The notes beneath the pieces are model-generated. The model made no database searches. It saw only the letters and a list, made by a program, of their open reading frames with translations, and was not told where the DNA came from. DNA of 61,365 bases, from positions 1 through 61,365 of the forward strand of contig JARGFH010000020.1 of assembly GCA_029210695.1 (NCBI GenBank). The letters are read 5' to 3'. The translations under genes were made by a program, and so were the position numbers. Shown here piece by piece: positions 41,290 through 58,731 of this stretch (the first letter of the stretch is position 1; each line of letters starts with the position of its first letter). The stretch comes from Acidimicrobiia bacterium (GTDB lineage Bacteria; Actinomycetota; Acidimicrobiia; Spongiisociales; JAHEDJ01).

Positions 41290-41598
41290 ATGGATCCGTT
41301 GAGACATCCCGACCTCATCGAAGTATCTCGGCACCTTCGCCGGCAATGGGAACGAGTTGTCGAGGCCGAACAGGCGGCCGCCCGGGCAACGTGGTTACGC
41401 CGACGTTCGCTGAGAGACCGCCTGATCGACGCTGAAGACCGTCGAGAACACACAACCCTTTGGTGCCTTGACGGCCGCTCCCCCGCCGGCCTCGTGCATG
41501 CCGTTGGTTCTGATCATGTCGTGCTACTCACAGGTGATCGGAGCCGTTTCGTCCTCCTGCACCAGATCGTCGCGGCGGGATTCGAAGACGCCGAATGA
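41290..41598 (+). CDS. Small basic protein of unknown function
   Basis: A 102-aa protein that I do not recognise. The first 60 residues are a charged, Arg-rich helix (HLRRQWERVVEAEQAAARATWL and following); the rest looks like a small beta domain (HAVGSDHVVLLTGDRSRFVLLH). AAGGA precedes the ATG by eight bases. The last codons (EDAE, TGA) lie in the first unit of the 20-bp repeat array that leads to the CpaE-like gene; the two probably once formed an ATGA-coupled pair. Confidence 0.7.
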   Translation: MDPLRHPDLIEVSRHLRRQWERVVEAEQAAARATWLRRRSLRDRLIDAEDRREHTTLWCLDGRSPAGLVHAVGSDHVVLLTGDRSRFVLLHQIVAAGFEDAE

Positions 41599-41740
41599 AA
41601 TCCGAAGACGCCGAATGAAATCCGAAGACGCCGAATGAAATCCGAAGACGCCGAATGAAATCCGAGAACGCCGAATGAAATCCGAGAACGCCGAATGAAA
41701 TCCGAAGACGCCGAATGAAATCCGAGAACGCCGAATGAAC
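41581..41740 (+). repeat. Eight-copy 20-bp tandem repeat forming a mini-ORF chain
   Basis: Eight exact-period 20-bp units (TCCGA-AGACG or GAACG-CCGAATGAAA). Every unit carries ATGA. Reading from each ATG gives MKSEDAE or MKSENAE and a stop overlapping the next ATG, so seven 7-codon ORFs (starts 41595, 41615, 41635, 41655, 41675, 41695, 41715) link the upstream stop at 41598 to the ATG at 41735. Confidence 0.9.
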
Positions 41741-42769
41741 CGCCCACGTATGGCCACGGTCCTCTCGGCGCGGGAATGGGAGCCGAGGCTGGTCGATGCA
41801 GCCAGACGCGACCCGATCGTGCGGATCGTGCGCAGGGCATATGAACCACAAGACCTGGAGCGGGCCGCACCCCTCGACATCGTGGTGGTTGGATCCGAAA
41901 CCTCGTGGATAACGTCCAATCGCATCCGTTCGATACGTCGGAGCGGAACGCACGTCATCGGCATCTATCCAACCGGCGACGGACCGGGACACGAACTCCT
42001 TCGTCGTGGCGGCGTCGACGTCGCATTGCCGGACACAACCACCCCGGAGGACCTGCTGGCTACGGCTTCATCAGTGGCGGCTCAGACCCTGGCAGCCGTC
42101 AGCAGGGGTCGGCTCATCTCGGTCACCGGCCCAAGAGGGGCTCCCGGTCGAACGGAAATCGCCGTCTCCGTCGCGCACGCCATCGCCGAACGCACCTCGA
42201 CCGCCATCGTCGACCTCGACACCGAAGCCCCAGGAATCACCTTCCGGCTGGGGTTGGAACCGGGCTCAAGCCTCATCGACACGGTCGACACCATCCGCAC
42301 GACGGATCGACTCGTGGCACGCACCGCCGGCCGGAACCTGACGGCGATCGGTGGACCCGTCCCACTCCGGACCGACCTCTCAGTCAAACCCGGAATCGCC
42401 GAACTCCTCGACGCCGTCCTGGCCGCATTCCCGGTCACCGTTGCAGATATCGGGCCGTGGAGGCCGGATCACACGATCCTGGCCACCAGCGACGCGGCCA
42501 TCGTCGTATGCAACGCCTCCCCCATGAGTCTCATCAGAGCCGCTCACTTCGTCCGCGACTGGGAGGGGCCGATTCCATACGTTGTCATCAACCGAGTCGC
42601 ACCCGGGCAGGACGAGGACATCCTCCGCTCTGCGCGAAGAGCCCTGGGATTGGAGCCGCACACCCTCATTCCTGAGCTCGCCAATATCGATGGTCGAGAC
42701 GGGCCGGTACTCCGGCATTCCCTTGATTCCCTCGCAATCGACCTCCTCGCCGGCCCGCTCGATCTATGA
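41735..42769 (+). CDS. MinD/CpaE-like ATPase with altered P-loop
   Basis: A 344-aa protein of the ParA/MinD/CpaE/Ssd type. Residues 1-120 resemble a receiver-like domain without clear phospho-acceptor, and 128-330 the ATPase domain: VTGPRGAPGRTE (130-141) replaces the usual GKGGxGKT, with R139 in the P-loop lysine position, followed by VDLDTEAPGITFRLG. Such proteins place pili, septa or replication regulators. No pilus gene is adjacent, so the role is open. It starts at ATG 41735 in the last repeat unit, and no separate ribosome site is visible. Confidence 0.72.
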   Translation: MNRPRMATVLSAREWEPRLVDAARRDPIVRIVRRAYEPQDLERAAPLDIVVVGSETSWITSNRIRSIRRSGTHVIGIYPTGDGPGHELLRRGGVDVALPDTTTPEDLLATASSVAAQTLAAVSRGRLISVTGPRGAPGRTEIAVSVAHAIAERTSTAIVDLDTEAPGITFRLGLEPGSSLIDTVDTIRTTDRLVARTAGRNLTAIGGPVPLRTDLSVKPGIAELLDAVLAAFPVTVADIGPWRPDHTILATSDAAIVVCNASPMSLIRAAHFVRDWEGPIPYVVINRVAPGQDEDILRSARRALGLEPHTLIPELANIDGRDGPVLRHSLDSLAIDLLAGPLDL

Positions 42770-42882: not shown

Positions 42883-43365
42883 GTGGCAGGAATGAGCCGT
42901 CGGACGTTTTTGAGTCGCGCCACCGCCTCGATCGTCGGTGGGATCGGCGCCCTGATGGGAATACCGACCGTCGCCTACCTCATTTCTCCCGCCAAAGCTC
43001 GCGGTGGTCTCGGCGTCGAGGCAATCCCACTCGGACCGATCAGCAAAGTCCCCATCGGGGAACCCACCCTCTTCAAAGCAACCATTGAGCGCAAGACCGG
43101 GTGGGTCACACAAGCCGAGGAGCTGGCCTTCTACGTCTCCACCGACGACGGCCGCAACTTCACGGCCATGTCCAACGTCTGTACACACCTGGGATGCCGG
43201 GTGCGTTGGGTCGACGACGAGGAGGAGTTCTTCTGTCCGTGCCACAACGCCGTCTTCTCGAAGACGGGCACCGTTGTGTCAGGTCCACCTCCCAGGGCTC
43301 TCGACCAATACGAGCTTTCCGTTGAGGACGGCCAGCTCTTCGTTGTGGGAAAGATCGAAGCATGA
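42883..43365 (+). CDS. Rieske iron-sulfur protein, complex 1
   Basis: Takes one electron from quinol in a bc/b6f-type complex. A Tat signal (SRRTFLSR, 5-12) and one membrane span anchor it. The Rieske 2Fe-2S motifs are CTHLGC (C100, H102, C105) and CPCHN (C118, C120, H121). At 160 aa it is short, like b6f Rieske proteins. It starts at GTG 42883 after GGGAG and heads a three-gene operon whose next start overlaps its stop by four bases. Confidence 0.94.
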   Translation: MAGMSRRTFLSRATASIVGGIGALMGIPTVAYLISPAKARGGLGVEAIPLGPISKVPIGEPTLFKATIERKTGWVTQAEELAFYVSTDDGRNFTAMSNVCTHLGCRVRWVDDEEEFFCPCHNAVFSKTGTVVSGPPPRALDQYELSVEDGQLFVVGKIEA

Positions 43366-44054
43366 TCGAGAAGGTCAGCGCCTGGTTCGAGGAGCGGATG
43401 GGATGGAAGCCGATATGGAAGGCGCTGGCCCTCCGCAATATCCCCAAGGTCAACTGGTTGTACACGCTGGGTAGCGCCACGCTCCTGGTCACGGTGAACC
43501 AGATTCTGACCGGCATCCTTCTCACCATCTACTACGTGCCGAGTCCGCAGGATGCCTACAACAGCGTTGCCTTCATAACGAACGAAATCACGGCCGGCTG
43601 GCTCATCAGAGGTCTGCATCACTGGGGGGCCAGCGCCATGGTCGTCCTGGCCGGACTCCACATGCTGCGTGTAGTTTTCCACGGCGCCTACAAGTTCCCC
43701 CGCGAGATCACCTGGTTCACGGGACTCGGCCTCCTCGCCGTCACGATGGCCTTCGGTTTCACCGGGTACCTGCTGCCGTGGGATCAGAAGGCCTACTGGG
43801 CCACGACCGTTGGTACCCGAATGCTGGAGGTCACACCCGTCATCGGCGACTGGCTCCTCCGGATCGCCCGCGGCGGTGAAGAACTGTCGGCGGTGACCCT
43901 GACCCGGTTCTACGGGACTCATGTATGGGTGCTCCCCTCGGTGCTCTTGATACTCCTGGGGATCCATATGTTCCTCGTCGTCCGGATCGGTATCAGCGCA
44001 CCTCCCACTGCTGAAGAGGCGGCTGAAGAGCCCGATGTGGAGGTCGAGGCATGA
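43362..44054 (+). CDS. Cytochrome b6-type subunit, complex 1
   Basis: Quinol-oxidising membrane subunit with two b haems. The 230 aa have four spans and the ligands H86, H100, H187 and H202, the same numbers and spacing as chloroplast cytochrome b6, so this is the short split form. Position 35, a Cys that binds haem c-n in b6 proteins, is Thr here, so that extra haem is probably missing. It overlaps both the Rieske gene and the subunit IV fusion gene. Confidence 0.95.
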   Translation: MIEKVSAWFEERMGWKPIWKALALRNIPKVNWLYTLGSATLLVTVNQILTGILLTIYYVPSPQDAYNSVAFITNEITAGWLIRGLHHWGASAMVVLAGLHMLRVVFHGAYKFPREITWFTGLGLLAVTMAFGFTGYLLPWDQKAYWATTVGTRMLEVTPVIGDWLLRIARGGEELSAVTLTRFYGTHVWVLPSVLLILLGIHMFLVVRIGISAPPTAEEAAEEPDVEVEA

Positions 44055-46438
44055 AACCGGAGGATCGCGCCGAGTACCTAGAGGAGTACGCCAAGGACAA
44101 GAAGAAAGGGATTCCGTTCTTTCCGGATGCGGTGTTCAAGGACGTCCTGGTTGCCCTCATCGTCCTCATCGTCCTAATCGGTCTCGCCTACTTCGGTGGC
44201 GCGCCCCTGGACGAACGCGCCGACCCATCGGATTCCGAATACACCCCTCGACCCGAGTGGTACTTCCTCTGGCTCTTCCAACTGCTCAAGTATTTCCCCG
44301 GCAACCTCGAGTTCGTCGGCGTCATCCTCCTGCCCGCCCTCGGATTCGCCGTTCTCTTCGCCATGCCGTACCTGGACAGGACCAAGCTCCGACACTTCCG
44401 TAGCCGCAACTGGGTGATGGCATCAACCGGCGTCGCCGTGGTAGCCATGGGGTTTCTCACCGTCCAGTCCATCCGGGAAACCCCGGCACCGGCCGACGTG
44501 ACCGGCGCCATCAACGCCGCCGCTCTCTTCACCGAGAATTGCTCCGTGTGCCACGGCACTTCCATCGATGTCCCGATCGGGATCAATCTGCATGAGACGA
44601 TTGCAGGTGGCCACGAGGGAATGCCCGCCTTCGCGGCCACCCTGTCCACCGACGAAATCGACGCCCTGGCAGGTTTCCTGGTGTCGCCTCAGGGCGGGGC
44701 GATCTTCACCGCCAACTGTGCCGCGTGCCATGATTCGAGTGACCTCGCCGCCGCCAGCCCATTCGAACTCCAGAACGCCCTGAACCTGGGCACGGGCTAT
44801 GCGCCCCACACCGGCCTCGACATCCCCGAATGGTCCGAGTTCCTCTTTGGTCCGGACCGCACCGCGCTCCTCAACTTCCTACTCGCTCCGGACGGGCAGC
44901 GCCTCTATACGCTCTATTGCTCGGAGTGCCACGGAAACTCGATCAGTTGGGACGGCGGGCGAGACGAACTCGAGGCCATCATCCGCCAGGGCGGCAACCA
45001 CCTCGACATGACCCAATGGCGGGACGTCCTGCCGGAAGACCAGATCACCGAACTGGCCCTGTTTGTCTACGAACCATCTGCAGCTCCCCAAGGCGAGCAA
45101 CTGTTTGCACAGCACTGCTCGAGCTGTCACGGTGTTCGCGTGCCGAGCGCTCCCGACATCGAGACCGCCTACAACATCATCGCCGACGGCGCAGAACACC
45201 GCTCGATGCCCCTGTGGGGAGATGTCCTCACAGAGGAACAACTCACCGCACTCACCACCTACACCCTCGAAGCCAGTCGCGGCACCCCGATCCTCATCGG
45301 TCAGCAACTGTTCGGCCGATTGTGTTCGTCCTGCCACGGCGATTTCGGGGAAGGCGGGCCGAACCCCTCGGATCCGGTCAATATCATCGCCCCGATCAGC
45401 ACAGCGTTGTATCTGGAGACTCGCGACGATCTCACGCTGCGGGCGATCATCTCGAGGGGACAACCCGATCAGGGCATGTCGCCGTTCCTCGAGAGCGAGG
45501 GCGGACCGCTCACCGAGGACGAGGTCGAAGCCCTGGTGGCCTTCCTCCGTTCGTGGCAGGCAGACCCACCGGTAGAGTTCCCGCCGGATCTCGTCCGCGG
45601 GCCGGTCGCAGGAGGGAGTACACAGGTGTACACCGCTTTCTGCGCTCAATGCCACGGCATGGACGGTGCGGGCGGACCGGGCTTGGTCGGACCCTCATTG
45701 GTCTCGGCAGACTTCCAGGATTCCTTCACGGATGAGCAACTCCACGAGGCCATCGACCTCGGCCATGCTGCCACTTCTATGATCGCCTGGGGCGAGGTCC
45801 TCACCGCCGATCAGATCCAGGGACTCGTCGACCACATCCGCTCGCTGGGCGGACGCGGAGCGATTGAGACGATCGTCTACGCACGCGACATTGCACCGAT
45901 ATTCCAGGCATCGTGCGCCGGTTGTCACGGAACGTCCGGAGGGTGGGATGCCGCCACCATGGAGTCGGTCATCGAGAGCGGGGACAGCGGTGCGGCCGTC
46001 GTGCCCGGCGATCCCGACGGGAGTATCCTGATGCAGCGCCTCCTCGGCGAGGGTAACTTGATGCCACCCGGCGGAGCGCTGCCGGATGCCCAGATCACAT
46101 TGATCGAACAGTGGATCGCCGGAGGAGCAACCACCGAGGTGACGGTCGGCGACGAACAGGCAACCGGCGACTACACCTGGACGAAGGATGTGCTCCCGAT
46201 TCTGCAGGCCAGTTGTGCTTCGTGCCACGGGTCAGCCGGCGGGTGGGACGCATCCACCTACAGCTCAACGATCAACAGCGGAAGAAGCGGCCCGGCCGTG
46301 GTACCGGGCGATGCCGATAAGAGCACGATGATCCAGCGACTGCTTCGCAATGGCGCCCTCATGCCGCCGGGGACTCCCCTGCCCGAAGAACAGATCGCCA
46401 TCCTGATCTACTGGGTAAACAGTGGAGCCAAGGAGTAG
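44051..46438 (+). CDS. Subunit IV of a b6-type complex fused to an octahaem cytochrome c
   Basis: The N-terminal 145 residues are subunit IV with three spans and the Qo-site motif PEWYFL (68-73). A long extracytoplasmic part then carries eight CXXCH haem sites: starts at C164, C223, C290, C356, C425, C531, C622 and C722. Haems one to six lie in small class I-like modules with repeated E..QL..L spacing; the last two (about 610-695 and 710-795) are tandem copies with GGWDA and MPPG motifs like those of planctomycete-type cytochromes. Known Gram-positive relatives carry one or two haems here, so this 795-aa protein is unusual. It ends the first bc operon. Confidence 0.93.
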   Translation: MKPEDRAEYLEEYAKDKKKGIPFFPDAVFKDVLVALIVLIVLIGLAYFGGAPLDERADPSDSEYTPRPEWYFLWLFQLLKYFPGNLEFVGVILLPALGFAVLFAMPYLDRTKLRHFRSRNWVMASTGVAVVAMGFLTVQSIRETPAPADVTGAINAAALFTENCSVCHGTSIDVPIGINLHETIAGGHEGMPAFAATLSTDEIDALAGFLVSPQGGAIFTANCAACHDSSDLAAASPFELQNALNLGTGYAPHTGLDIPEWSEFLFGPDRTALLNFLLAPDGQRLYTLYCSECHGNSISWDGGRDELEAIIRQGGNHLDMTQWRDVLPEDQITELALFVYEPSAAPQGEQLFAQHCSSCHGVRVPSAPDIETAYNIIADGAEHRSMPLWGDVLTEEQLTALTTYTLEASRGTPILIGQQLFGRLCSSCHGDFGEGGPNPSDPVNIIAPISTALYLETRDDLTLRAIISRGQPDQGMSPFLESEGGPLTEDEVEALVAFLRSWQADPPVEFPPDLVRGPVAGGSTQVYTAFCAQCHGMDGAGGPGLVGPSLVSADFQDSFTDEQLHEAIDLGHAATSMIAWGEVLTADQIQGLVDHIRSLGGRGAIETIVYARDIAPIFQASCAGCHGTSGGWDAATMESVIESGDSGAAVVPGDPDGSILMQRLLGEGNLMPPGGALPDAQITLIEQWIAGGATTEVTVGDEQATGDYTWTKDVLPILQASCASCHGSAGGWDASTYSSTINSGRSGPAVVPGDADKSTMIQRLLRNGALMPPGTPLPEEQIAILIYWVNSGAKE

Positions 46439-46765: not shown

Positions 46766-48562
46766 ATGGAGAAACTTCATTTCTTCGACGAGAACATCCC
46801 CTGTCTCGCCGCCTGTCCTGTCAACACGAATGCCGGCATGTACGTCGCCGCCATCGCAGACGGACAGGATGAACTGGCCTACCTGACTGCTCGCCTCCCC
46901 AATCCGTTTGCGTCCGTCTGCGGACGGGTTTGTGCGGCTCCCTGCGAGGACGCTTGTCGCCGCGGCGAAATCGACAAGCCCATTGCCATTCGGGCACTCA
47001 AGCGGTTCGTCACCGATCAATTCGGTGTGGAAGCGGGCATGGACACCTACAAGCAGGTCGCCGCTCCCCCACTCGAGTCGCGACCACAGAGCGTCGGTAT
47101 CGTCGGAGGGGGCCCGGCCGGCCTGGCTGCCGCCCACGACCTCCGCCGTCTCGGCTACGCCGTCACCCTGTATGAAGCCACCGGGCAACTCGGCGGCATG
47201 ATGCTGCTCGGGATCCCCGAGTACCGCCTGGATCGATCCCTTCTGGCGGCGGAGATCAAAGCCATCACCGATCTGGGTGTTGAGGTGCGTTTGAACACGA
47301 AACTCGGCGAAGGCATCACACTCGACGACGCCCGCCGACGCCACGATGCGGTATTCGTGGCTATTGGGGCGACCCTGGGGCGCGGCCTCGACCTCGAAGG
47401 CCACGACGCAGACGGGGTCTTGAAGGCGATCGAGTATCTCATCAACGCCAACCAGGGTTTTGCTACCGAGGTCGGCCAGAAGGTCGTCGTGATCGGTGGC
47501 GGCGACGTGGCGATGGATGCCGCCAGGACCGCCCTGCGAGCTGCAACATACGATGAGATTGCCCGCCGCCACGCTGAATACGACGAAGAGGACGGGCGCT
47601 CTTCAATGACCGAAGCCCTCGACGTTGCCCGAACGGCTGCGCGGACGGGCGCCCAGGACATCACCATCATGTCCCTGGAGGCCAAACACGAAATGCCGGC
47701 CTCGGAGTTCGAGGTCGAAGAAGCGGAGCACGAGGACATCAAGTTCGTCAACCGCCGCGGCCCCGCCCGGATCCTCACCGCAGATGGCAAGGTCACCGGC
47801 ATAGAGACGATCGGGGTCACGCGCGTATTCGACGAGAACGGCCGCTTCTCTCCTGAATTCGATGACGCCGATCGAGTGACGCTAGAGGCCGACACAATCA
47901 TCATGGCGATCGGCCAGGCCATCGACGTTGAGGCGCTGGGGGCGAATGGTCCGGAGCTCAGTCCTCGCAAGACCATCCAGGTGGGTGACGACAGCCTGGC
48001 GACTTCACTTCCGATGGTATGGGCCGGTGGCGACGCGGCCAGAGGCCCGCGCACCCTCATCGACGCGATAGCAGACGGCCGGATCGCGGCCCGTGAGATC
48101 CACGAGGCATTCGGTGGCAGCTTCGCCGAGCAAGATGCCGGAACCATGGTGCAGCTTGACCAATTCCACCGTCTCGACGACGTCTACGACCGGGTCCCCC
48201 GGGTCGCCGTACCCACGCTGCCGACCGACCGGCGCATCGGTCTGGCAGAAGTCGAAACAGGGTTCACCATCGAAGAGGCCAGGTGTGAGGCACAGAGGTG
48301 TCTGCGCTGCTTCGCCAACATCCTCCTCGACACGGACATCTGTGTGCTGTGCGCGCTGTGCGCCGACGTCTGCCCGCTCGACCTGATCTCGCTGGTGCCT
48401 TCTGAGGACATTCACCCGGACGAGGCGGGTGGCACGGCATTAATGTTGAACGAGCAGAGCTGCATCCGCTGCGCGCTGTGCATAGAGCGATGCCCGACGG
48501 ATGCGTTGTCGATGGGGCTATGGACCGGAGTGGGAGTGCCGACCTTGGGAGCACGGGTATGA
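46766..48562 (+). CDS. GltD-like FAD/NAD(P) oxidoreductase with 4Fe-4S clusters
   Basis: A 598-aa flavoprotein related to the glutamate synthase small chain and the NfnB/SfrA types. N-terminal cysteines C13, C17, C52, C56, C60 and C64 match the two-cluster domain of GltD. Two Rossmann motifs follow: IVGGGPAGLAAA (FAD, about 112-123) and VVVIGGGDVAMDAAR (NAD(P)). The C-terminus adds two 4Fe-4S motifs, C526-C529-C532-C536 and C566-C569-C572-C576. No glutamate synthase large chain is present; its stop overlaps the ATG of a cytochrome b gene, so it probably exchanges electrons between NAD(P)H and the second complex. Confidence 0.92.
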   Translation: MEKLHFFDENIPCLAACPVNTNAGMYVAAIADGQDELAYLTARLPNPFASVCGRVCAAPCEDACRRGEIDKPIAIRALKRFVTDQFGVEAGMDTYKQVAAPPLESRPQSVGIVGGGPAGLAAAHDLRRLGYAVTLYEATGQLGGMMLLGIPEYRLDRSLLAAEIKAITDLGVEVRLNTKLGEGITLDDARRRHDAVFVAIGATLGRGLDLEGHDADGVLKAIEYLINANQGFATEVGQKVVVIGGGDVAMDAARTALRAATYDEIARRHAEYDEEDGRSSMTEALDVARTAARTGAQDITIMSLEAKHEMPASEFEVEEAEHEDIKFVNRRGPARILTADGKVTGIETIGVTRVFDENGRFSPEFDDADRVTLEADTIIMAIGQAIDVEALGANGPELSPRKTIQVGDDSLATSLPMVWAGGDAARGPRTLIDAIADGRIAAREIHEAFGGSFAEQDAGTMVQLDQFHRLDDVYDRVPRVAVPTLPTDRRIGLAEVETGFTIEEARCEAQRCLRCFANILLDTDICVLCALCADVCPLDLISLVPSEDIHPDEAGGTALMLNEQSCIRCALCIERCPTDALSMGLWTGVGVPTLGARV

Positions 48563-49296
48563 CGTTGGGACAACGAATCCGCGAGAGCATCATTGGTCGT
48601 TCGATCTGGCGTGCCACCGACCGAACCACTGAACGCGATCAGGCGGCCGGACACTGGGCGAACTTCTTCCTGCACATCTATCCGGTGAAGGTGCGCCGAA
48701 AGGAGATCACGTTCCGCTACTCCTGGTATCTCGGTGTGGCGTCGCTGGTCCTGTTCGGATCTCTTCTAGTGTCGGGCATCTACCTGATGTTCTTCTACGT
48801 CCCGTCGCCTGCCCAGGCCTACGGCGACATCCTCAACCTGCAGACCCGGGTGGCTTTCGGCCAGTACATCCGTAACGTCCACCGCTGGTCGGCTCACCTC
48901 ATGGTGCTGGTCGTCGCCGCGCACATGGCAAGGGTGTTTTACCGGGGCGCCTACAAGAAACCGCGTGAATTCAACTGGGGTGTCGGCGTCATCCTCCTCG
49001 TGCTCACGCTGCTCCTTTCCTTCACCGGCTACCTGCTCCCCTGGGACCAGCTCGCCTACTGGGCTGTCACGGTCGGCACCGAGATGGCCGCCTTCGTCCC
49101 GCTGATCGGAGACACCGTCAAGGAGATGATGCTGGGTGGGCCGGTAGTTGCATCGTCGACGCTGCTGCGGTTCTACGTTCTGCATGTCGCCGTGCTACCC
49201 ACGGCCGTCGTCCTCCTCATCACGATCCATTTGTGGAGATGGCGCAAAGACAGCATGCTCGACGCGGCGAAGGAGGGTGTTGATGTCGACGCCTAG
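48559..49296 (+). CDS. Cytochrome b6-type subunit, complex 2
   Basis: Second membrane cytochrome b of the window, 245 aa from ATG 48559 (the frame is open further upstream within the flavoprotein gene). Haem ligands are H108 and H122, and H209 and H224, keeping the b6-type spacing. FTGYLLPWDQLAYWAVTVG is shared with complex 1. The N-terminus is 20 residues longer and basic. The start overlaps the flavoprotein stop and the gene overlaps the next by 14 bases, so the cluster is a single unit. Confidence 0.93.
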   Translation: MTLGQRIRESIIGRSIWRATDRTTERDQAAGHWANFFLHIYPVKVRRKEITFRYSWYLGVASLVLFGSLLVSGIYLMFFYVPSPAQAYGDILNLQTRVAFGQYIRNVHRWSAHLMVLVVAAHMARVFYRGAYKKPREFNWGVGVILLVLTLLLSFTGYLLPWDQLAYWAVTVGTEMAAFVPLIGDTVKEMMLGGPVVASSTLLRFYVLHVAVLPTAVVLLITIHLWRWRKDSMLDAAKEGVDVDA

Positions 49297-49819
49297 ACCC
49301 GATCAGGAGAATCCTGAGATCATCGCCGGACAACGGGTGCTCGGGGTTGTTCCCGGCAAGCCACCCGGCGGCGACCGCAAGGTTCTGAGCGAGCAGGAGC
49401 CGGTCATGGTCTGGCCGCATCTGCTCGTCCGCCACGCCGTGGCGGCGCTGGTGGTCATCGCCGTCGTTCTGGTTCTCGCCATCTTCTTCGATGCCCCGCT
49501 ACGTGAGATCGCCAACCCCACACTGACGCCGAACCCGGAGAAAGCCCCCTGGTATTTCGCGGCGCTCCAGGAACTGCTGGCGTTGTTCCACCCGCTGGTG
49601 GCCGGTGTGCTGGTTCCGGGCGCCATCGTCCTCGGGCTCTTCGCGCTTCCATACGTCGACAGGACTTCTACGATCGAGCCACGTTTCCGCAAGGTGGCGG
49701 TGGCGACCTTCACGATCTTCATGGTCGTGTGGATAATCCTGACGATTATCGGATTCGCCTTCCGCGGCCCCAACTGGGGTTGGGTGTGGCCCTGGCAAGA
49801 GTGGTACGGAGAGTTATGA
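49283..49819 (+). CDS. Subunit IV-like protein, complex 2, with APWY in place of PEWY
   Basis: A 178-aa membrane protein with three spans, the C-terminal cytochrome b part of complex 2. At the Qo site it has KAPWYFAALQE (A88-P89-W90-Y91); the acidic residue of the PEWY motif, which accepts quinol protons, is missing. It has a long hydrophilic N-terminus (1-42) and no haem domain, unlike its partner in complex 1. It starts at ATG 49283 after GGAGG, inside the last codons of the cytochrome b gene. Confidence 0.88.
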   Translation: MSTPRPDQENPEIIAGQRVLGVVPGKPPGGDRKVLSEQEPVMVWPHLLVRHAVAALVVIAVVLVLAIFFDAPLREIANPTLTPNPEKAPWYFAALQELLALFHPLVAGVLVPGAIVLGLFALPYVDRTSTIEPRFRKVAVATFTIFMVVWIILTIIGFAFRGPNWGWVWPWQEWYGEL

Positions 49820-50322
49820 GCAACGGAATCGGTCGGAGAGAATTCCTGTCCAGGGCCTGGAAGTGGGGAGCGGCCCTCATCGGCGTCGCCGGGGGCTGGA
49901 CCACCTGGGACATCCTGCAGCCCCGGATCACCGGAGGGTTCGGTGGGATCATCAAGACAAAGGCAGCCGACACGGTGCCGGACGCCACCGTCGAATCCAT
50001 CCGCGCCGCCAGAACCTACCTCACCAGGATCGACGGTGAGGTCGTAGCCCTCTCCGAGAAGTGTCCGCACCTCGGTTGCCGGGTGCCGTGGTGCGATTCG
50101 TCCGGACAATTCGAGTGCCCGTGCCACGGATCGGTCTTCAACCGGGCGGGCGAGTACCGCTCAGGACCGACCCCGCGCGGAATGGACCGCTACGAGTTCG
50201 AGACGATCGACGGCATCGTCTACGTCGACACCGGAACACTGATATCCGGACCGGCGATCGGTGTGGAGACCCTCAACGAACCCGTACGAGGGCCATCGTG
50301 TGAGGACAGCTCGCATGGGTGA
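49816..50322 (+). CDS. Rieske iron-sulfur protein, complex 2
   Basis: A second Rieske protein, 168 aa, with Tat motif GRREFLSR (6-13), one membrane span, and cluster motifs CPHLGC (C83, H85, C88) and CPCHGS (C101, C103, H104). Loop lengths are shorter than in the first copy. Its start overlaps the subunit IV stop (ATGA). Gene order (b, IV, Rieske, c) is reversed against complex 1 (Rieske, b, IV-c). Confidence 0.94.
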   Translation: MSNGIGRREFLSRAWKWGAALIGVAGGWTTWDILQPRITGGFGGIIKTKAADTVPDATVESIRAARTYLTRIDGEVVALSEKCPHLGCRVPWCDSSGQFECPCHGSVFNRAGEYRSGPTPRGMDRYEFETIDGIVYVDTGTLISGPAIGVETLNEPVRGPSCEDSSHG

Positions 50323-50779
50323 GCGACCGGTTGATCAGGAACTCGAGCAATCGACCGTCAAGTGGATGCAAGCCGGACTGGCCCTGATGGTCGTCCTGGT
50401 GCTGGCCTTCCCGGCCTACCGGCTGCTGGAACCCACCAACCGTGAGGAGGCGCGTCAGCTACTGACGGAGGAGCTGGCTGCGCAGGGCGAGGAACTGTTC
50501 GTCGGCCAGTGCGCCGCCTGCCACGGCGAAAACGGGCTGGACGGACAAATCGGTCCGTCGTTGAACTCGAAGCAGTTCCTCGAAGCCGCCACCGACGCCC
50601 AGATCATCAGCCTCGTCTCGGTCGGCGTCCCGGGCTCCCAGATGGGCGCCTACTCGATCGACTTCGGCGGTCCACTGACCCTGGAGCAAATCACGGGCAT
50701 CGCGACCTACTTGCGCTCGCTGGAAGAAGACGCCCCGGACAACCCGGACTGGCGAGCAGTCGTGGAACCGGGGAACTAG
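50315..50779 (+). CDS. Membrane-anchored monohaem cytochrome c
   Basis: A 154-aa protein with one N-terminal membrane span (about 19-36) and a class I cytochrome c domain: CAACH (C66-H70) and a likely Met ligand in GSQMGAY. It probably serves as the electron exit of complex 2, the role of cytochrome c1/f, toward oxidase or multihaem partners. ATG 50315 follows GAGGAC by eight bases, inside the end of the Rieske gene. Last gene of the second cluster. Confidence 0.9.
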   Translation: MGERPVDQELEQSTVKWMQAGLALMVVLVLAFPAYRLLEPTNREEARQLLTEELAAQGEELFVGQCAACHGENGLDGQIGPSLNSKQFLEAATDAQIISLVSVGVPGSQMGAYSIDFGGPLTLEQITGIATYLRSLEEDAPDNPDWRAVVEPGN

Positions 50780-51610: not shown

Positions 51611-51724
51611 TCAGCCCTCCACCCGGCGGCGGACGCTACGCAAGCGCACCGTCAAAAACGCCGCATATCCGATCATGAAGCCGTACACCACTGTGTAGGC
51701 AACAACGACCCATCCGTTAGACAT
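51611..51724 (-). CDS. ccmD: CcmD-like small membrane protein
   Basis: A 37-aa single-span protein (MSNGWVVVAYTVVYGFMIGY and a basic tail RLRSVRRRVEG), starting at ATG 51724 and overlapping the ccmC stop by eight bases. Size, one span, basic C-terminus and position between ccmC and ccmE match CcmD, which releases holo-CcmE from CcmABC. Sequence similarity in this family is low, so the call rests on position. Confidence 0.75.
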   Translation of the reverse strand: MSNGWVVVAYTVVYGFMIGYAAFLTVRLRSVRRRVEG

Positions 51725-52442
51725 CACGCACCTTCTCGAGATTGGGAGCCGTGATAGCGGCACCGGCGGGGGTGGCATCAGCGGCGGCGGACTGTTCTTC
51801 GAGTTCTTCCTCGCCCCTGGCAATGGCCGTCTTGACGCTCATGAAAGCGAGATAGACCACAGTGAAGGCTCCGACGTTGCTGAGCAACGCCAGCAGGATC
51901 TCCCCATCGATCGGAGAGTCCGGTCGCACCACCGTGATCCCCTGGTGCAGCGTGCGCACGATGATCACCGAAACGTACGACAGCGGCACGAGGAAGAAGG
52001 CGACGATGCCCAGCACCGCGGATCTCGTCGCCCGCATGGCCGGGTCGGGAATGCTGCGGCGCAAGGCCAGGTACCCGAGGTAGACAAAGAACATGAGGGC
52101 GGTCGTCATCATGCGGGCGTCGCCCCAGTCCCAGAACGTCCCCCACACCGGGTAACCCCAGATCATGCCGGTCATGAGCGCCAGTGCGGTAAAGAACACA
52201 CCGACCGAAACGCTCGACTCGGCAATTCGATCGTAAACGGGCTTGCGTCTCGCCAGCCACAGGATCGAGGCGCCGAACGTCACGAGAAACGAGAGGTAGG
52301 CAAGCCACGCAGAAGGAACGTGGACGTACATGATGCGGGTGTATTCGCCCTGCAACTGATCGAGCGGCGCCTGGCCACCGAAGTAGAAGCCGACCAGAAC
52401 CGCCGCCAGGGCGGTCAACCCGAGTATTCGATGTCTATTCAA
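51717..52442 (-). CDS. ccmC: Haem handling protein CcmC
   Basis: Attaches haem to CcmE at the outer face of the membrane. The 241-aa protein has six spans and the tryptophan-rich haem motif WGTFWDWGDARM, flanked by His residues (VHVPSAW and RTLHQG). The extra C-terminal 35 residues are charged and Ala-rich. Its start overlaps the ccmB stop by four bases. Confidence 0.94.
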   Translation of the reverse strand: MNRHRILGLTALAAVLVGFYFGGQAPLDQLQGEYTRIMYVHVPSAWLAYLSFLVTFGASILWLARRKPVYDRIAESSVSVGVFFTALALMTGMIWGYPVWGTFWDWGDARMMTTALMFFVYLGYLALRRSIPDPAMRATRSAVLGIVAFFLVPLSYVSVIIVRTLHQGITVVRPDSPIDGEILLALLSNVGAFTVVYLAFMSVKTAIARGEEELEEQSAAADATPAGAAITAPNLEKVRDV

Positions 52443-53119
52443 CGTGAGGCCTCCTCGAGAAATCGGGCGGTCAGCACACCTACCACTGCCAGCCCGAGTA
52501 CCACGGCAAGTAGCAGAAGGATGGGAGTGAGGATACTTGACTTCTGCGCCAACGCTTCATACGTCTGTGATGCTCCGACGAGCAACGGGAGAGCCAGTGG
52601 TGCCACCAGCAGCGGTGCCAGCGTGTTGCGAGAGCGCAGACCGGCGGTGATACCGGAGGCGAGCGTGCCGATGAGCGCCAGGCCGACGGCCATCAGCACA
52701 AGGACCAGGATCAGGATCGCCCACCCGTCTACCGGGTCCGGGTTGTAGAGGATGATGGTGGCGGGAGCGAGCACTCCTTCGAACACGAGCAACAGGAGGA
52801 AGCTCGCCACCACCCTGCCTGCGAACTGCGCGGCCGGGTCAACGCCGAGCAACACCATCATCTCGCGATTGGCCGCGCTTTCCGTGGCCGACTGTCGAAA
52901 GGTGACCAGCATCCCGAACAGCAGGGTCACGACCCAGAACATTCCGGGTCCGATCGAGGCGATGAGGGGCCGGTCGGTTCCAATTGCCAGCGGAATGAGG
53001 AGCAGTGCAACCGCTCCAAACGGGATGGTGATGTTCAGGACCTCGCCGGTTCGGCCCTCGACCCGCAGATCCTTCAGAACGATCTCGTATGCCTGACCCC
53101 AGAACGATGGACCGCTCAT
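52439..53119 (-). CDS. ccmB: CcmB membrane component of the haem-release ABC complex
   Basis: Membrane subunit of the CcmAB transporter that frees holo-CcmE for haem transfer. The 226-aa protein has six spans and the CcmB pattern ALLLIPLAIG and GMLVTFRQ with the cytoplasmic NREMMVLLGVDPA loop. It is coupled by 4-nt overlaps to ccmA upstream and ccmC downstream. Confidence 0.92.
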   Translation of the reverse strand: MSGPSFWGQAYEIVLKDLRVEGRTGEVLNITIPFGAVALLLIPLAIGTDRPLIASIGPGMFWVVTLLFGMLVTFRQSATESAANREMMVLLGVDPAAQFAGRVVASFLLLLVFEGVLAPATIILYNPDPVDGWAILILVLVLMAVGLALIGTLASGITAGLRSRNTLAPLLVAPLALPLLVGASQTYEALAQKSSILTPILLLLAVVLGLAVVGVLTARFLEEASR

Positions 53120-53772
53120 CGTGACCTCCCCGCGATCACGGTCCCACCGGTCAGCTCATAGGTCGATTGCACCAGCGGCAACATGCGGTCGAGTTCGTGC
53201 GAAACGAAGACGGCGGCGCCGCCGCGCGAACGGACGTTGTCGACCACGGCGTCGACCAGCTGCGCGGCTTCCCGATCTAGTCCGGCGTGGGCCTCGTCGA
53301 GCAGCAGTAGATCCGGCCTGGTCAGAATCACCCTGGCGAACTCCACGCGTCGCTGCATCCCATGCGACGACTGCTCCGCCCGCCGGTGTTTCGCCCCACC
53401 CAGCCCGACCACGTCGAGCATCTCATCCACCCGCTCGTCTGTATGACCCGACAACCGGGCGACGAAGGAGAGGTTCTCACGCAGGGTCAACTGCGGGTAG
53501 AGCGCCGGCTGATGGCCGATGAGGGCGATCCGGCGCCGGATCGCATAAGCGGTCGATTCGCCCATCTCGGTACCGAACACCGCCACCGACCCCTCCGTCG
53601 GTCGCAGCAAAGTGGCCAGCACCCGCAGCAGCGTCGACTTGCCGGAACCATTCGGCCCGACGATCCCGGCTGCTTCTCCGGACGGCACCGCCAGTTCCAC
53701 GCCTTTCAATACCGGAACCCGGCCGTATCGAACGGCGACGCCGTGCAGCTGCACTGTGGGAGGTGTGGACAT
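53116..53772 (-). CDS. ccmA: CcmA ATPase
   Basis: ATP-binding subunit of the CcmABCD haem complex. The 218-aa protein starts at ATG 53772; upstream residues are not protein-like. Walker A is GPNGSGKST (39-47), the signature segment reads SHGMQRRVEFAR (normally SxGQxxR), and Walker B is LLLLDEAHAGLD. TACACT eight bases before the ATG marks a leaderless promoter for the whole ccmA-B-C-D-E unit. It diverges from ccmF. Confidence 0.92.
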   Translation of the reverse strand: MSTPPTVQLHGVAVRYGRVPVLKGVELAVPSGEAAGIVGPNGSGKSTLLRVLATLLRPTEGSVAVFGTEMGESTAYAIRRRIALIGHQPALYPQLTLRENLSFVARLSGHTDERVDEMLDVVGLGGAKHRRAEQSSHGMQRRVEFARVILTRPDLLLLDEAHAGLDREAAQLVDAVVDNVRSRGGAAVFVSHELDRMLPLVQSTYELTGGTVIAGRSR

Positions 53773-53780
53773 GACAGACG

Positions 53781-53786
53781 AGTGTA
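53781..53786 (-). promoter_or_regulatory. Candidate -10 box of the ccmABCDE unit
   Basis: TACACT on the minus strand, eight bases before the ccmA ATG at 53772; no ribosome site. Confidence 0.45.
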
Positions 53787-54042
53787 CGCCCGCAGCCCCC
53801 GGCGCCGAAACGCGCGCCCGGGTTGCCACCACCTGCTGCCTCCCGTTCATCACCTTCCTAGGTTTCCATGAGCTGGTTTCCACCAGGCAGGGCCCAAGGA
53901 CACCGGTGCGCGAGGACTTTGCGCTGTTGGTGTGTTTCCGATATACCCGTATCCTCTGGAATGAGAAACGGGGGACCGACCCTGAATCGCCGCTGAAACG
54001 GCTCATTCAAACGGTGATCCCCATGGAGGAAGGCACAGCACA

Positions 54043-56082
54043 ATGAACGCGACCCTCGGATATCTCTCGATCCTCGCCGCAGTGGTGGGAGCGCTCGGTA
54101 TCACCGTGCGGGGTTTCATCGCCATGCGAGATCCGGAGCGGGCGAACAAGGGGTATCTGGGGTTGCCCGTCATCCTGTTCTTGTCCGGAGCCGTCGGCGC
54201 AATATTCTTCCTGGAACTCGGGCTCCTCACCGACGACTTCTCGATCAAGTACATCGCCAACAACTCGTCATCCACCACCCCGTTTCTCTTCAAGTTCGCT
54301 TCGGGATGGGCATCCCTGGAGGGATCGATCGTGTTGTGGGGCCTGGTTCTGGCCGGCTTCACATTCGCCGTGTACGCGCGGTTCTTCCGTAGCCAAACCG
54401 GCGACCGGCTCGCAGCCGGTGCTCTGGCGATCATGGGTCTCATCTCCCTCTACTTCTTCGGGCTGATGGCCACGATCTCCGACCCCTTCGCCCGCTGCGT
54501 ACAAACGTTCAGCGACGGGGTCGGTTGCGTGACCGGCGAGAACGCGATTCTCGCCAACGTGATCTCCTCCCCGATCGAAGGGCGCGGTGCCAACGCACTG
54601 CTCCAGAACCACTGGCTCATGGCGCTGCATCCCCCAACGCTCTACGTCGGCTATGTCGGGCTGAGCGTCCCCTTTGCGTTTGCCATCTCGGCGCTCATCC
54701 TTCGGACGACCGGGGCGGACTGGCTGACCCGGACCCGTAATTGGACGGTGTTCGCCTGGATGTTCCTCACCGCCGGCATCGTGCTCGGTGGGCTCTGGTC
54801 GTATGAAGTGCTCGGCTGGGGCGGTTACTGGGCGTGGGATCCGGTTGAGAATGCCTCCTTCATGCCGTGGCTGGTAGCGACGGCCTTCTTGCACTCGTCG
54901 GTCGTACAGGCCAGGCGCGGGATGCTGCAATCGTGGAACTTCGTCCTCGTGATCACCACCTTCGCCCTCACGATTCTCGGTACCTTCTTGACCCGCTCCG
55001 GAGTGATCGTCTCGGTCCACAGCTTCTCTCAATCCGCCATCGGGCCGGCCCTGTTGATCTTCCTGGTGGTCGTGCTGCTGGGATCGCTCGGGCTCTTCGC
55101 CACCCGCGCCCACACCATCGCCTCTTCGCCCCGGCTCGATTCGCTCAGCAGCCGGGAAGGGGTGTTCTTGTTCAACAACCTTCTCCTGACGGTGTTCGCG
55201 TTCATGGTGCTGACCGGGACGCTCTACCCGCTCTTCGTCGAGGCGTTCTCCAACTCGACGGTGGGCGTCGGACGTCCATTCTTCGATCGCATGGCGATCC
55301 CGCTGTCCTTCCTCTTGTTGCTGGCGATGGGGATCGGACCGGTCTCGCCCTACCGGGCGGCGAGTGCCCGAGTCGTCTGGGAGCGGATTCGCTGGCCTTT
55401 CCGGGTGGCCCTCGGTGCCGCGGCGCTGGCCGTCGTGTTCGGCTACGGGAATTCGTTCCTGCTGCTCGGTGTCCTGACCGCGGTATTCGTCATGGGTGTG
55501 ATCATCCACAACCTCTACAACTCGGCCGGGATCCGGGCAGGCAAGCTCGGCATTGGACGGAGACAGGCTGCCGTACGGATCATGCGTGGCGACCCGCACT
55601 ACTGGGGCGGGCAGATCTCCCACCTGGGTGTCGCAATCCTGGCGCTGGGCATCGCCTTCTCTGCGAATTTGTCGGAGACGGCCACGATTTCTATCGACGC
55701 CGGCGACACCGTCAACTTCGCCGGATTCGAGGTGACCTATGAGGAGGCGTTCAGCCGGCAGGAACCCGGCCGGTTTGTCACCGGTGCAGACATCACCGTG
55801 ACCCGGGAGGGGTCGGTCGTCGGCAAGTACCAGCCACGCCTCAACCAGTACGGGAACACCCGCGAGTCCATCGCCACCCCGGAGGTCGACACAATGTTCA
55901 CCGGCGATCTCTACCTCTCACTCCGCAGTATCGATCCTTCCACCGTGGTCCTCGAGGTCTACTGGTTCCCGTTCATCTGGTTGATCTGGGTGGGTGGGTT
56001 CCTGGCGGCTGCGGCCGGAGTCTGGGGATTCGCAGTCAAGAAGCCCGAGCGGTCGATCGTGCCGGACGACACCCGTGTCTGA
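54043..56082 (+). CDS. ccmF: Cytochrome c haem lyase CcmF
   Basis: Ligates haem to apocytochrome CXXCH sites at the outer face of the membrane. The 679-aa protein has about 14-15 spans, the WWD-type motif WGGYWAWDPVENASFMPWL, the early FASGWASLEGS motif, and conserved His residues (LHPPTLYVGY, TAFLHSSVVQ). A large extracytoplasmic loop sits near the C-terminus. GGAGGAAGG precedes the ATG. First gene of the ccmF-H-I-G unit. Confidence 0.95.
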   Translation: MNATLGYLSILAAVVGALGITVRGFIAMRDPERANKGYLGLPVILFLSGAVGAIFFLELGLLTDDFSIKYIANNSSSTTPFLFKFASGWASLEGSIVLWGLVLAGFTFAVYARFFRSQTGDRLAAGALAIMGLISLYFFGLMATISDPFARCVQTFSDGVGCVTGENAILANVISSPIEGRGANALLQNHWLMALHPPTLYVGYVGLSVPFAFAISALILRTTGADWLTRTRNWTVFAWMFLTAGIVLGGLWSYEVLGWGGYWAWDPVENASFMPWLVATAFLHSSVVQARRGMLQSWNFVLVITTFALTILGTFLTRSGVIVSVHSFSQSAIGPALLIFLVVVLLGSLGLFATRAHTIASSPRLDSLSSREGVFLFNNLLLTVFAFMVLTGTLYPLFVEAFSNSTVGVGRPFFDRMAIPLSFLLLLAMGIGPVSPYRAASARVVWERIRWPFRVALGAAALAVVFGYGNSFLLLGVLTAVFVMGVIIHNLYNSAGIRAGKLGIGRRQAAVRIMRGDPHYWGGQISHLGVAILALGIAFSANLSETATISIDAGDTVNFAGFEVTYEEAFSRQEPGRFVTGADITVTREGSVVGKYQPRLNQYGNTRESIATPEVDTMFTGDLYLSLRSIDPSTVVLEVYWFPFIWLIWVGGFLAAAAGVWGFAVKKPERSIVPDDTRV

Positions 56083-56488
56083 TTCGATCCGCAAAATCGT
56101 GGCGGCCGTGGTGACCATCGGCCTGGCGGTCGTTGTCGTGGTCGGTCTCGTCCAGGGCGACCGTACGGATGAAGATCGAGCCCGGTCTATCGGCAGTCGG
56201 GTCAAGTGCCCGGTCTGCCAGGGCGTCGCTATCGCCGATTCACCGTCCGAAACTGCCAGGGCGATGATGGACGTCGTCGAAGAGCGAATCGCAGACGGGT
56301 GGTCCGACCGGCAGATCATCGACTACTTCTCCGAGCGGTACACCGACAGCATCGTCATCGACCCACCGTTCTCCGGGAACACTCTGCTCGTCTGGCTGCT
56401 CCCGATCCTGGCAGTAGTCGCAGGCTTCTTCATGATCTTCTCCCGGCGCAAGACGCCGGTGCCAAAAACCGATGAGGTGAAACAGTGA
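56075..56488 (+). CDS. ccmH: CcmH thiol-disulfide protein
   Basis: Reduces or presents apocytochrome cysteines for haem attachment. The 137-aa protein starts at GTG 56075 inside the ccmF end. It has an N-terminal span (8-26), the redox motif VKCPVCQG (C45, C48; LRCxxCQ family) and a second span near the C-terminus with a basic tail, the short CcmH form. A separate CcmI-like gene follows. Confidence 0.92.
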   Translation: MSDSIRKIVAAVVTIGLAVVVVVGLVQGDRTDEDRARSIGSRVKCPVCQGVAIADSPSETARAMMDVVEERIADGWSDRQIIDYFSERYTDSIVIDPPFSGNTLLVWLLPILAVVAGFFMIFSRRKTPVPKTDEVKQ

Positions 56489-57330
56489 GCAACTTCAACC
56501 AGGAGTCGTACGACCGAGCCGCCGCCCGCAAGGAACTCGCCCTGACCGATCTCGAAGAACTGGCCCAGCAGGTGGAAGACGGTGAGATCGACGCAGCCAC
56601 CGCGGCAGGACTCCGGAGCGGCTACGAGGCTGAACTTGGCGCGGCCGAGGCCGAACTGGCCACACTCGGCCCACCGCCAGCCCGCAAGAAGTCGCCCGCC
56701 TCGGCTCAGGCGCCGGGTTCGACCAAACGAGCTCCGAGCGAGACGGGGCAGCCTGCCGGGAAATCGAGCGACCTCAATACGCGCCTGCTGGTCGGCGCCG
56801 GAATTCTCATCGTCGCCCTCGTCGTGATTCTCATCTCGGTGCAGAATTCGGCACAGCCGGATCCGGCCGCGGTGGGCACCCAGGTGACAACCGCAAGCGG
56901 CGAGGGCCCCTGCGCGGAACTGGCCGGCGCGTTGACCAATCACTCCGACAACGGCTTTCGTCTGGCGCTGGCCGATTGCTACGCAGACGTCGGAGACGCC
57001 ATGTCGGCGATCGAGCATTACCGGGCCGTCGCCGAGGCCGAAGGCGCCACCGACGGCGAGGTAGCCCGGGCCAACGTGGGACTCGGTTTTCTCAACCTCC
57101 AAATCGGAGAGCTCACCAAGGCTGCCGACTACATGCGCCTGGCACTCGAGCGCGACGCCGCCAATATCGAAGCTCAGTACTTCCTGGGCATGATGCTGGT
57201 CTACGACCTCGGCGACCCGGCCGCAGGGGCCCCCTACTTGGAATCGGTACTCGCCACGCCCGATTTGCCGGAGACCGTGGTTCTCGAAATCCAGGCGGCG
57301 CTCGACGTCGCAGCGGGCGAAGGCTCATGA
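56485..57330 (+). CDS. ccmI: CcmI-like TPR protein
   Basis: Probably holds apocytochromes for the CcmF/H lyase. The 281-aa protein has a short cytoplasmic N-terminus with a zinc-ribbon-free, Glu-rich helix (1-60), a Lys/Pro linker, one membrane span (about 98-117), then TPR repeats (about 140-275: AIEHYRAVAEAEGATDGEVAR, then FLNLQIGELTKAADYMRLAL). This topology (cytoplasmic head, one span, external TPRs) is unlike the two-span proteobacterial CcmI, so it is named by context. GTG start overlaps the ccmH stop. Confidence 0.8.
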   Translation: MSNFNQESYDRAAARKELALTDLEELAQQVEDGEIDAATAAGLRSGYEAELGAAEAELATLGPPPARKKSPASAQAPGSTKRAPSETGQPAGKSSDLNTRLLVGAGILIVALVVILISVQNSAQPDPAAVGTQVTTASGEGPCAELAGALTNHSDNGFRLALADCYADVGDAMSAIEHYRAVAEAEGATDGEVARANVGLGFLNLQIGELTKAADYMRLALERDAANIEAQYFLGMMLVYDLGDPAAGAPYLESVLATPDLPETVVLEIQAALDVAAGEGS

Positions 57331-57929
57331 CCGATACCGACCTCGCCGTCGAGCCGACCCCGGACGCTCAGCAACGCAATCTCAAACTGTGGATAACCAC
57401 CGGCATCGCGGCAGTTGCGTTCATCGCGCTGGCGCTCGTGTTCAACAGCCGGTTCGGCGTTGACCCCCGGGTCGTCGAATCCCCGCTCATCGGGAAACCC
57501 GCCCCGAACGTCGAACTTGAGGTTCTCGAGCAGGACGCCATCTCCGGCCCCATGTCCATCTCGGAACTTCGCGGCAGTGTGGTTGTCGTCAACTTCTTTG
57601 CCTCGTGGTGCATCCCCGCCTGTCGCGACGAGCACCCCCATCTCACTGCGGCCGCCGCCGACTACGCCGACCGGGGCGCGCGATTCATTGGAATAGCCAC
57701 CAGCGACGCGCCGGACGACACTCGCAGGTTCCTGGACGCGCTCGGGTGGGGAACCAACTACACCTATCTCAACGACCCCGATGCCAGGGCCGGGGTCGAG
57801 TTCGGCACGTTCGGAGTTCCGGAGACGTTCGTGATCGACCGGGAGGGGCTCGTCACGCACAAATTCACAGGCCCGGTCACATACGATGAACTGGTGGTCG
57901 AGTTGGAGAAGGCGTTGGCGGGCTCATGA
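57327..57929 (+). CDS. ccmG: TlpA/CcmG-like thioredoxin-fold protein with CX3C active site
   Basis: Membrane-anchored thiol-disulfide protein, 200 aa, with one span (about 22-40) and a thioredoxin fold (from about 58). The position in the ccm operon matches CcmG/DsbE, which delivers reductant to CcmH and apocytochrome. The active site reads WCIPACRDEHP: C95 and C99 are separated by three residues rather than two. The cis-Pro motif GVPETFVID is normal. ATG 57327 overlaps the ccmI stop. Last gene of the unit. Confidence 0.87.
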   Translation: MTDTDLAVEPTPDAQQRNLKLWITTGIAAVAFIALALVFNSRFGVDPRVVESPLIGKPAPNVELEVLEQDAISGPMSISELRGSVVVVNFFASWCIPACRDEHPHLTAAAADYADRGARFIGIATSDAPDDTRRFLDALGWGTNYTYLNDPDARAGVEFGTFGVPETFVIDREGLVTHKFTGPVTYDELVVELEKALAGS

Positions 57930-58038: not shown

Positions 58039-58731
58039 ATGCAGAGAACAAACGAGCTGACACGCACGGTCCTGCGACTGGCCTGGTTGACTCTTTTGAC
58101 TCTCGCATGGGTGTTGTGGACGAGTCAGGCGGCCGCCCACGCCCAGGAACTCCCCGGACGAGATGATCCGTTCTGGAAGACCGACACCTGCCTCGGCTGC
58201 CATCAGCAGTCGGACTTGTCCGTGAAACTGCCATCCGACGAGACGCTGCGACTGGTCGTATATAGAGGCGAGTACGAAGATTCAGTGCATGGTCGAACAG
58301 GAGTGGCCTGCCGCAACTGTCATCTTGACATCACCGGTGTCCCTCACCCTGATCTCACCGCCGGAAGCCTGGTCGAGTTCTCAGAACAGCAAGCCAGCTC
58401 CTGCGAGATGTGTCACCGGGATCACTACGGCAAAGTGGCAGACGAACTGCATGAGGAGTCTGGTGGTTTGTTGTGCTTCGAGTGTCATGATCCGCACACA
58501 ACCGGCAGCACTGACTCGGTATCGACTGAGGTTCAAGCTTCCTGCAACGCATGCCACTCCGGGAGTATCGAGATTCCTGCACAGGGGATTCACGCCGCGG
58601 CCGAGGTCCCGGTCCCGGAGACCACGAGCGGTGTCACGATCCTGCTCATTCTCGGCGGGATCTTTGTCGGTTTCGTCGTCCTCGTCTGGTTGGCGACGGT
58701 GGCCTGGCGCGTTGTGCGCGATCGAAGCTGA
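58039..58731 (+). CDS. Pentahaem membrane cytochrome c
   Basis: An exported cytochrome with five CXXCH sites (CLGCH, CRNCH, CEMCH, CFECH, CNACH) in 230 aa. It has a signal peptide (about 1-36, ending AHAQ) and a C-terminal membrane span (about 196-220) with a basic tail, so it is anchored with haems outside. The five sites and spare His residues suggest bis-His coordination as in cytochrome c3/NrfH-like carriers. GGGGAGACAGGG precedes the ATG. It probably passes electrons from the quinol pool or bc complex to the decahaem lipoprotein. Confidence 0.9.
   Translation: MQRTNELTRTVLRLAWLTLLTLAWVLWTSQAAAHAQELPGRDDPFWKTDTCLGCHQQSDLSVKLPSDETLRLVVYRGEYEDSVHGRTGVACRNCHLDITGVPHPDLTAGSLVEFSEQQASSCEMCHRDHYGKVADELHEESGGLLCFECHDPHTTGSTDSVSTEVQASCNACHSGSIEIPAQGIHAAAEVPVPETTSGVTILLILGGIFVGFVVLVWLATVAWRVVRDRS

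Follow-up and report, generated by a model that had tools for sequence, protein, structure and literature searches.

In a 61,365-nt stretch of DNA from an Acidimicrobiia bacterium (contig JARGFH010000020.1, referred to here as the window), subunit IV of a Rieske/cytochrome b complex carries, within the same polypeptide, eight cytochrome c modules of class I. The eight-haem fusion is a genuine inherited gene, its modules are conserved among relatives, and a gene for a decahaem lipoprotein is linked to it. The fusion family as a whole is inherited in two groups of uncultured bacteria belonging to two phyla, Actinomycetota and Chloroflexota. With a probability slightly better than even (roughly 0.55), the complex would oxidise menaquinol and pass the electrons through its haem string to multihaem partners, chiefly the linked decahaem lipoprotein.

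The genes of the operon and the parts of the fusion protein are located in the window as follows.

42883-43365, + strand: Rieske1 [2Fe-2S] subunit, 160 aa, Tat-like N-terminus (Pfam Rieske, 7.6e-12)
43362-44054, + strand: cytochrome b6 (cytb1), 230 aa (Pfam Cytochrome_B, 8.7e-50; PDB cytochrome b6, 1.5e-53)
44051-46438, + strand: subunit IV with eight class I cytochrome c modules, 795 aa (open reading frame, Pfam, relatives)
44051-44485, + strand: subunit IV part, residues 1-145, three predicted membrane helices at 26-49, 84-108 and 120-143 (Pfam Cytochrom_B_C)
44252-44263, + strand: PEWY motif of the Qo site, residues 68-71 (alignment of relatives)
44495-44686, + strand: haem module 1, CXXCH at 164, probable distal ligand M191
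44687-44881, + strand: haem module 2, CXXCH at 223, no Met, near-invariant H253
44885-45079, + strand: haem module 3, CXXCH at 290, probable distal ligand M320
45080-45271, + strand: haem module 4, CXXCH at 356, probable distal ligand M386
45284-45580, + strand: haem module 5, CXXCH at 425, M476; matches the first haem of dihaem fusions
45599-45865, + strand: haem module 6, CXXCH at 531, M577
45869-46159, + strand: haem module 7, CXXCH at 622, M671, PSCyt1-like; matches the second haem of dihaem fusions
46163-46435, + strand: haem module 8, CXXCH at 722, M771; tandem duplicate of module 7, source genus only

ORF analysis of the window gave a single open frame for the fusion (44051-46438, + strand) with zero internal stops. 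All 16 cysteines of the protein lie within its CXXCH motifs (residues 164, 223, 290, 356, 425, 531, 622 and 722), and in 20,000 shuffles of the protein the motif occurred 0.008 times on average and at most twice, compared with the eight observed. Pfam matches comprised Cytochrom_B_C at 61-157 (8e-11), Cytochrome_CBB3 in six stretches, Cytochrom_C, and PSCyt1 in two stretches. Reading frame, domain matches and motif counts thus agree with the preliminary description, in which one 795-aa polypeptide was said to join a PEWY-containing subunit IV to eight haem c sites. The start of the fusion gene overlaps the stop of the cytochrome b6 gene, whose own start overlaps the Rieske stop, so that the three genes, in the order Rieske, cytochrome b6 and fusion, form a coupled operon.

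The source genome is in draft form, in 181 contigs, and an assembly error or frameshift could in principle have fused subunit IV with a multihaem gene located downstream of it. This origin can be practically dismissed, as relatives rule it out: the same eight-haem gene was present at full length in four congeners with 76–88% identity, on contigs of separate genomes and in named public records, and the seven-haem form was present in many genomes from other studies. Coding-like GC by codon position was even across the entire fusion gene, and the fusion was conserved with a fixed module spacing across five genomes of the source genus, other families of the order and Anaerolineae. The only copy that looks split (L095, in genome G247) has a run of N at the break. 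Two findings had been named in advance as fatal to the fusion, namely a frameshift or assembly error and separate genes in close relatives; none of the former was detected in the fusion gene, and close relatives carry the same fusion.

The Rieske1 protein carries the cluster motif CTHLGC...CPCHNAVF and lacks the Ser and Tyr residues that raise the potential, a substitution common to most relatives. In the yeast Rieske protein, loss of Ser or Tyr drops the potential by about 130 or 65 mV, respectively (PMC12954380). The absence of both from Rieske1 would therefore suit menaquinol oxidation.

In cytb1, the haem b ligands H86, H100, H187 and H202, spaced by 14 and 15 residues, were kept in 30/30 relatives. 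Cys35 is absent, the position being occupied by Thr in 29 and by Ala in one of the 30 relatives aligned, and cytb1 should therefore lack haem cn. Cytochrome b is split between the cytb1 frame (43362-44054) and the frame of subunit IV (44051-46438), as indicated by Pfam and PDB matches, and the subunit IV part itself matches cytochrome b and subunit IV structures in the PDB. The PEWY motif of the ef loop was invariant in 48 relatives carrying two to eight haems. By analogy with the topology of cytochrome b6f, the C-terminus of the subunit IV part, and hence the c domains, would lie on the positive side.

The features of the broad b6f type were thus observed, namely four His ligands with the 14-/15-residue spacing, a split b6/subunit IV, PEWY, and an operon-encoded Rieske protein with CTHLGC...CPCH. 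In contrast, those of cytochrome b6f in the strict sense were missing: besides the lack of Cys35 for haem cn, no cytochrome f acceptor was found in the fusion operon with Pfam and NCBIfam, and subunit IV bears eight class I modules instead. The presence of all core subunits in one operon, the conserved ligands and PEWY argue for a quinol-oxidising complex.

The haem-bearing portion consists of small class I cytochrome c domains strung one after another, and differs in this from packed multihaem cytochromes. Modules 1–6 were assigned by Pfam to CBB3/Cytochrom_C and modules 7–8 to PSCyt1, while single modules gave fold matches of up to TM 0.84, with 7qhm_C (QcrC) among the best. In 21 sequences with modules 1–7, the residues M191, M320, M386, M476, M577 and M671 were nearly invariant, as was H253 of module 2, which is possibly bis-His to judge from its residues; M771 of module 8 is at the place equivalent to the distal Met of other modules. 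With eight separate class I modules, seven of them with a probable Met ligand, the protein does not have the packed bis-His fold of the MtrC/OmcS type.

Two AlphaFold2 models, computed for the apo-chain on its own, yielded well-folded modules whose mutual arrangement is unreliable (pTM 0.36 and 0.35). In the model with pTM 0.35, modules 1–5 were nearly free of linkers, and low-confidence joints were located at 145-151, 513-517 and 701-706. Structure prediction, which had been proposed as a check on the geometry of the haem chain, therefore bore out the folding of the modules; the linear wire from the Qo site found no backing in it.

The database search for the architecture, likewise proposed at the outset, returned the eight-haem form from the four congeners and the seven-haem form from other members and families of the order (G007, G014, G034, G008, G010, G235 and G281) and from about a dozen records of Anaerolineae (Chloroflexota). 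Distribution of the fusion family was patchy in the sampled class, with 13/296 genomes positive, one of which (G212) carried a three-haem form only. Near-full-length matches were obtained in 4/298 genomes of the sampled Chloroflexota class. The related fusions carry fewer haems: one haem was counted on subunit IV in all 13 readable Actinomycetota loci outside the source order, and two haems in 36 Chloroflexota loci. In a tree of cytb1 plus subunit IV, the seven-haem proteins of both groups and the eight-haem proteins of the source genus formed one clade (support 0.93), which suggests that the fusion may have spread between the two groups by lateral transfer.

Module profiles built from the seven-haem family were used to assign the haems of the 36 dihaem fusions. 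The first haem was assigned to module 5 in 34 of them (median 84 bits compared with 37 for the next module) and the second to module 7 in 31 (68 bits compared with less than 10). Modules 5 and 7 were also the only ones with invariant haem sites across the 48 relatives, module 5 being the most conserved of all. Since the dihaem fusions consist of modules 5 and 7, modules 1–4 follow the membrane anchor and precede the shared core. Growth purely through C-terminal duplication was ruled out on this ground.

Modules 7 and 8 were 54% identical (z = 35.6 against shuffles), whereas the next-best pair, modules 3 and 4, reached 37% (z = 13.8). Identity of module 8 to module 7 within each protein was 49–56%, compared with about 44% to module 7 of outside proteins. 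By these identities, the step from seven to eight haems is shown to be a tandem duplication limited to the source genus, and it is the only step so shown. The last two modules had been called clear tandem duplicates in the preliminary description, rightly so; its broader suggestion of growth by duplication holds for this step and not as simple C-terminal growth, given the position of modules 1–4 and the loss evident in three-haem forms. The three-haem proteins L042 and L098 consist of modules 5-6-7, lack modules 1–4 and are nested within the seven-haem clade, which indicates that modules have also been lost.

One Anaerolineae fusion of 819 aa (L109, 113-2569) has eight haems through a second module-6-like unit and not a second module 7. 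Judged by its module composition, it gained eight haems independently of the source genus. In the tree, a support of 0.96 placed L109 with the dihaem clade, whose own node was weak (0.16). With regard to the full dihaem-to-heptahaem history, the common ancestor may therefore have had two haems or many, and modules 1–4 may have been gained or lost.

The known subunit IV fusions carry one haem, as in the Bacillus QcrC type, or two, as in Anaerolineae. The one- and two-haem fusions share with the source fusion the PEWY membrane part and class I c domains following a cytochrome b6 gene, and those of Anaerolineae share modules 5 and 7 in particular. Helices and c domains occur in one chain in the source fusion as well, but with seven or eight haems in its family and not one or two; modules 1–4, 6 and 8 are missing from the known fusions. 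Actinobacterial bcc-aa3 complexes likewise have strings of class I c domains fed by the Rieske protein, yet their QcrC is a separate dihaem subunit, not joined to subunit IV.

The anammox complexes Kuste4569-4574 and Kustd1480-1485 combine a b6-like cytochrome b, subunit IV and a Rieske protein with a hexa- or octahaem cytochrome c acceptor; there, the multihaem cytochrome is separate, subunit IV is five-helical, and the complex includes an NAD(P) oxidoreductase (PMC12954380). In the source complex, by contrast, the haems are fused onto a three-helix subunit IV, and the neighbouring NAD(P) oxidoreductase gene probably belongs to a second complex. The c subunit of Rieske/b complexes is usually mono- or dihaem and sometimes tetrahaem (PMC3578206), and hexa- and octahaem subunits have been described only for the anammox complexes, as separate proteins (PMC12954380). 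One- and two-haem fusions and separate multihaem subunits are thus already known, and seven to eight fused haems are beyond the range given in PMC3578206. No description of a seven- to eight-haem subunit IV fusion was found in the literature searched, the coverage of which was incomplete, so that an earlier mention is possible.

In textbook Rieske/b complexes, electrons go to a single mobile cytochrome c. That seven or eight haems are covalently strung together in members of two phyla suggests that a direct wiring of quinol oxidation to multihaem acceptors is feasible, and the existence of one-, two-, three-, seven- and eight-haem versions within the family makes the function of the added haems testable. 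Two candidate partners are encoded in the window.

58039-58731, + strand: candidate partner, pentahaem cytochrome, 230 aa, N-terminal signal, C-terminal membrane helix
58834-60987, + strand: candidate partner, decahaem lipoprotein, 717 aa, two similar pentahaem halves

Both genes are 12–13 kb downstream of the fusion, in an order that is the same in a congener; a second Rieske/b complex and ccm genes lie between the fusion and the decahaem gene in the source genus. Elsewhere, the decahaem gene adjoins the fusion or is within about 8 kb of it (G235, G034, L032, L034, L035 and L036). No relative of the decahaem lipoprotein was found in the PDB. In the sampled class, the gene was present in 8/13 genomes with the fusion family and 2/283 without it (p = 4e-11), and counted by genera in 4/9 and 1/139 (p = 3e-5), both values being uncorrected for shared descent. 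This linkage and co-occurrence argue for the decahaem protein as an electron partner. It is not an exclusive one, since many Anaerolineae have the decahaem protein but no seven-haem fusion (84/298 sampled genomes); it was also absent from three Anaerolineae that carry the seven-haem fusion (G300, G548 and G457). Its distance from the fusion in the source genus likewise counts against the pairing.

According to the favoured reading, the b6f-type complex would oxidise a quinol, probably menaquinol, and its Rieske protein would reduce one membrane-near module, for which core module 5 and tethered module 1 are the probable candidates. With haem presumably inserted along the string, electrons would spread over it, in an order still putative, and from there reach multihaem partners located in the periplasm or wall (mainly the decahaem lipoprotein and the pentahaem cytochrome) and possibly also the caa3 oxidase. 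The string would thereby act as a docking hub, a reach extender and a small electron store. A cytochrome c maturation cluster (ABC subunit, CcmB, CcmC, CcmF and a thioredoxin-like protein) was found beside both complexes at 51717-57929; the presence of ccm genes in the window was counted in favour of this role. A stronger version, in which the Rieske/b complex is itself an extracellular electron conduit whose attached haems feed the surface decahaem lipoprotein for reduction of acceptors outside the cell, appears rather unlikely. If it were true, energy-conserving quinol oxidation in these Actinomycetota and Chloroflexota would serve extracellular acceptors.

A caa3-type oxidase (COX2 with a c domain, COX1 and COX3) is encoded at the start of the window (378-3975), and this, together with a module number that varies (2, 3, 7 or 8) through both gain and loss and with invariant haem sites confined to modules 5 and 7 in the wider family, fits an ordinary cytochrome c reductase subunit serving caa3, in which only modules 5 and 7 matter and the others have little functional weight. 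Such a role is doubtful, as the haem sites and axial ligands of modules 1–4 are kept in seven- and eight-haem proteins that are only about half identical, which drift would not achieve, and the oxidase has the second Rieske/b complex to serve it, which comes with a cytochrome c of its own. Moreover, no haem-copper oxidase (COX1) was found in G007 and G014, which are 95% and 100% complete, though the fusion is present in both; oxygen reduction is therefore not its sole use.

Operation in reverse, with electrons from an outside donor passing through multihaem proteins and the string and being driven by proton motive force onto the quinones, is improbable, more so than the caa3 role. Multihaem partners could work both ways, and a Chloroflexota isolate has been reported for anodic as well as cathodic electron transfer (PMC5808234), but the Rieske1 protein without both potential-raising residues fits menaquinol oxidation, and no donor-oxidising enzyme was found adjoining the fusion operon. 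Menaquinol oxidation with transfer to multihaem partners accordingly remains the reading given most weight.

The neighbours of the Anaerolineae fusions included multihaem cytochromes, a NapC-type protein and an NrfD/Fe-S/octahaem set. In locus L030 (15893-18841), families were assigned to an NrfD-like protein, a Tat Fe-S protein and an octahaem cytochrome near the fusion, and open reading frames matching this set were also located near the fusion in L032 (103-3097). Cytochrome c nitrite reductase (PF02335) was considered as a regular partner and rejected: weak partial matches were obtained in 8/16 genomes, above the cut-off in three.

The second complex occupies 46766-50779 of the window and comprises a GltD-like NAD(P) oxidoreductase with two 4Fe-4S sites, cytochrome b6, subunit IV, a Rieske protein and a monohaem cytochrome c. 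Its genes overlap or are closely spaced, and their order is repeated in several families of the order (L217 and L219-L222). The complex recalls the anammox complexes that have an NAD(P) oxidoreductase. The GltD-like protein is probably not a part of the fusion complex, which its gene adjoins, since it travels with the second complex in relatives. In the subunit IV of the second complex (49148-49819; L213-L224), (E/S)KAPWYF replaces PEWY and is conserved across the order. An Omnitrophota locus (L043) encodes GltD, a Rieske protein, cytochrome b and subunit IV together with a protein bearing 10 CXXCH motifs.

Upstream of the fusion operon, at about 41514-41870 on the - strand, repetitive reading frames (FIRRLRISFGVFGFHSAS repeated) were observed, their appearance being that of a short non-coding tandem repeat.
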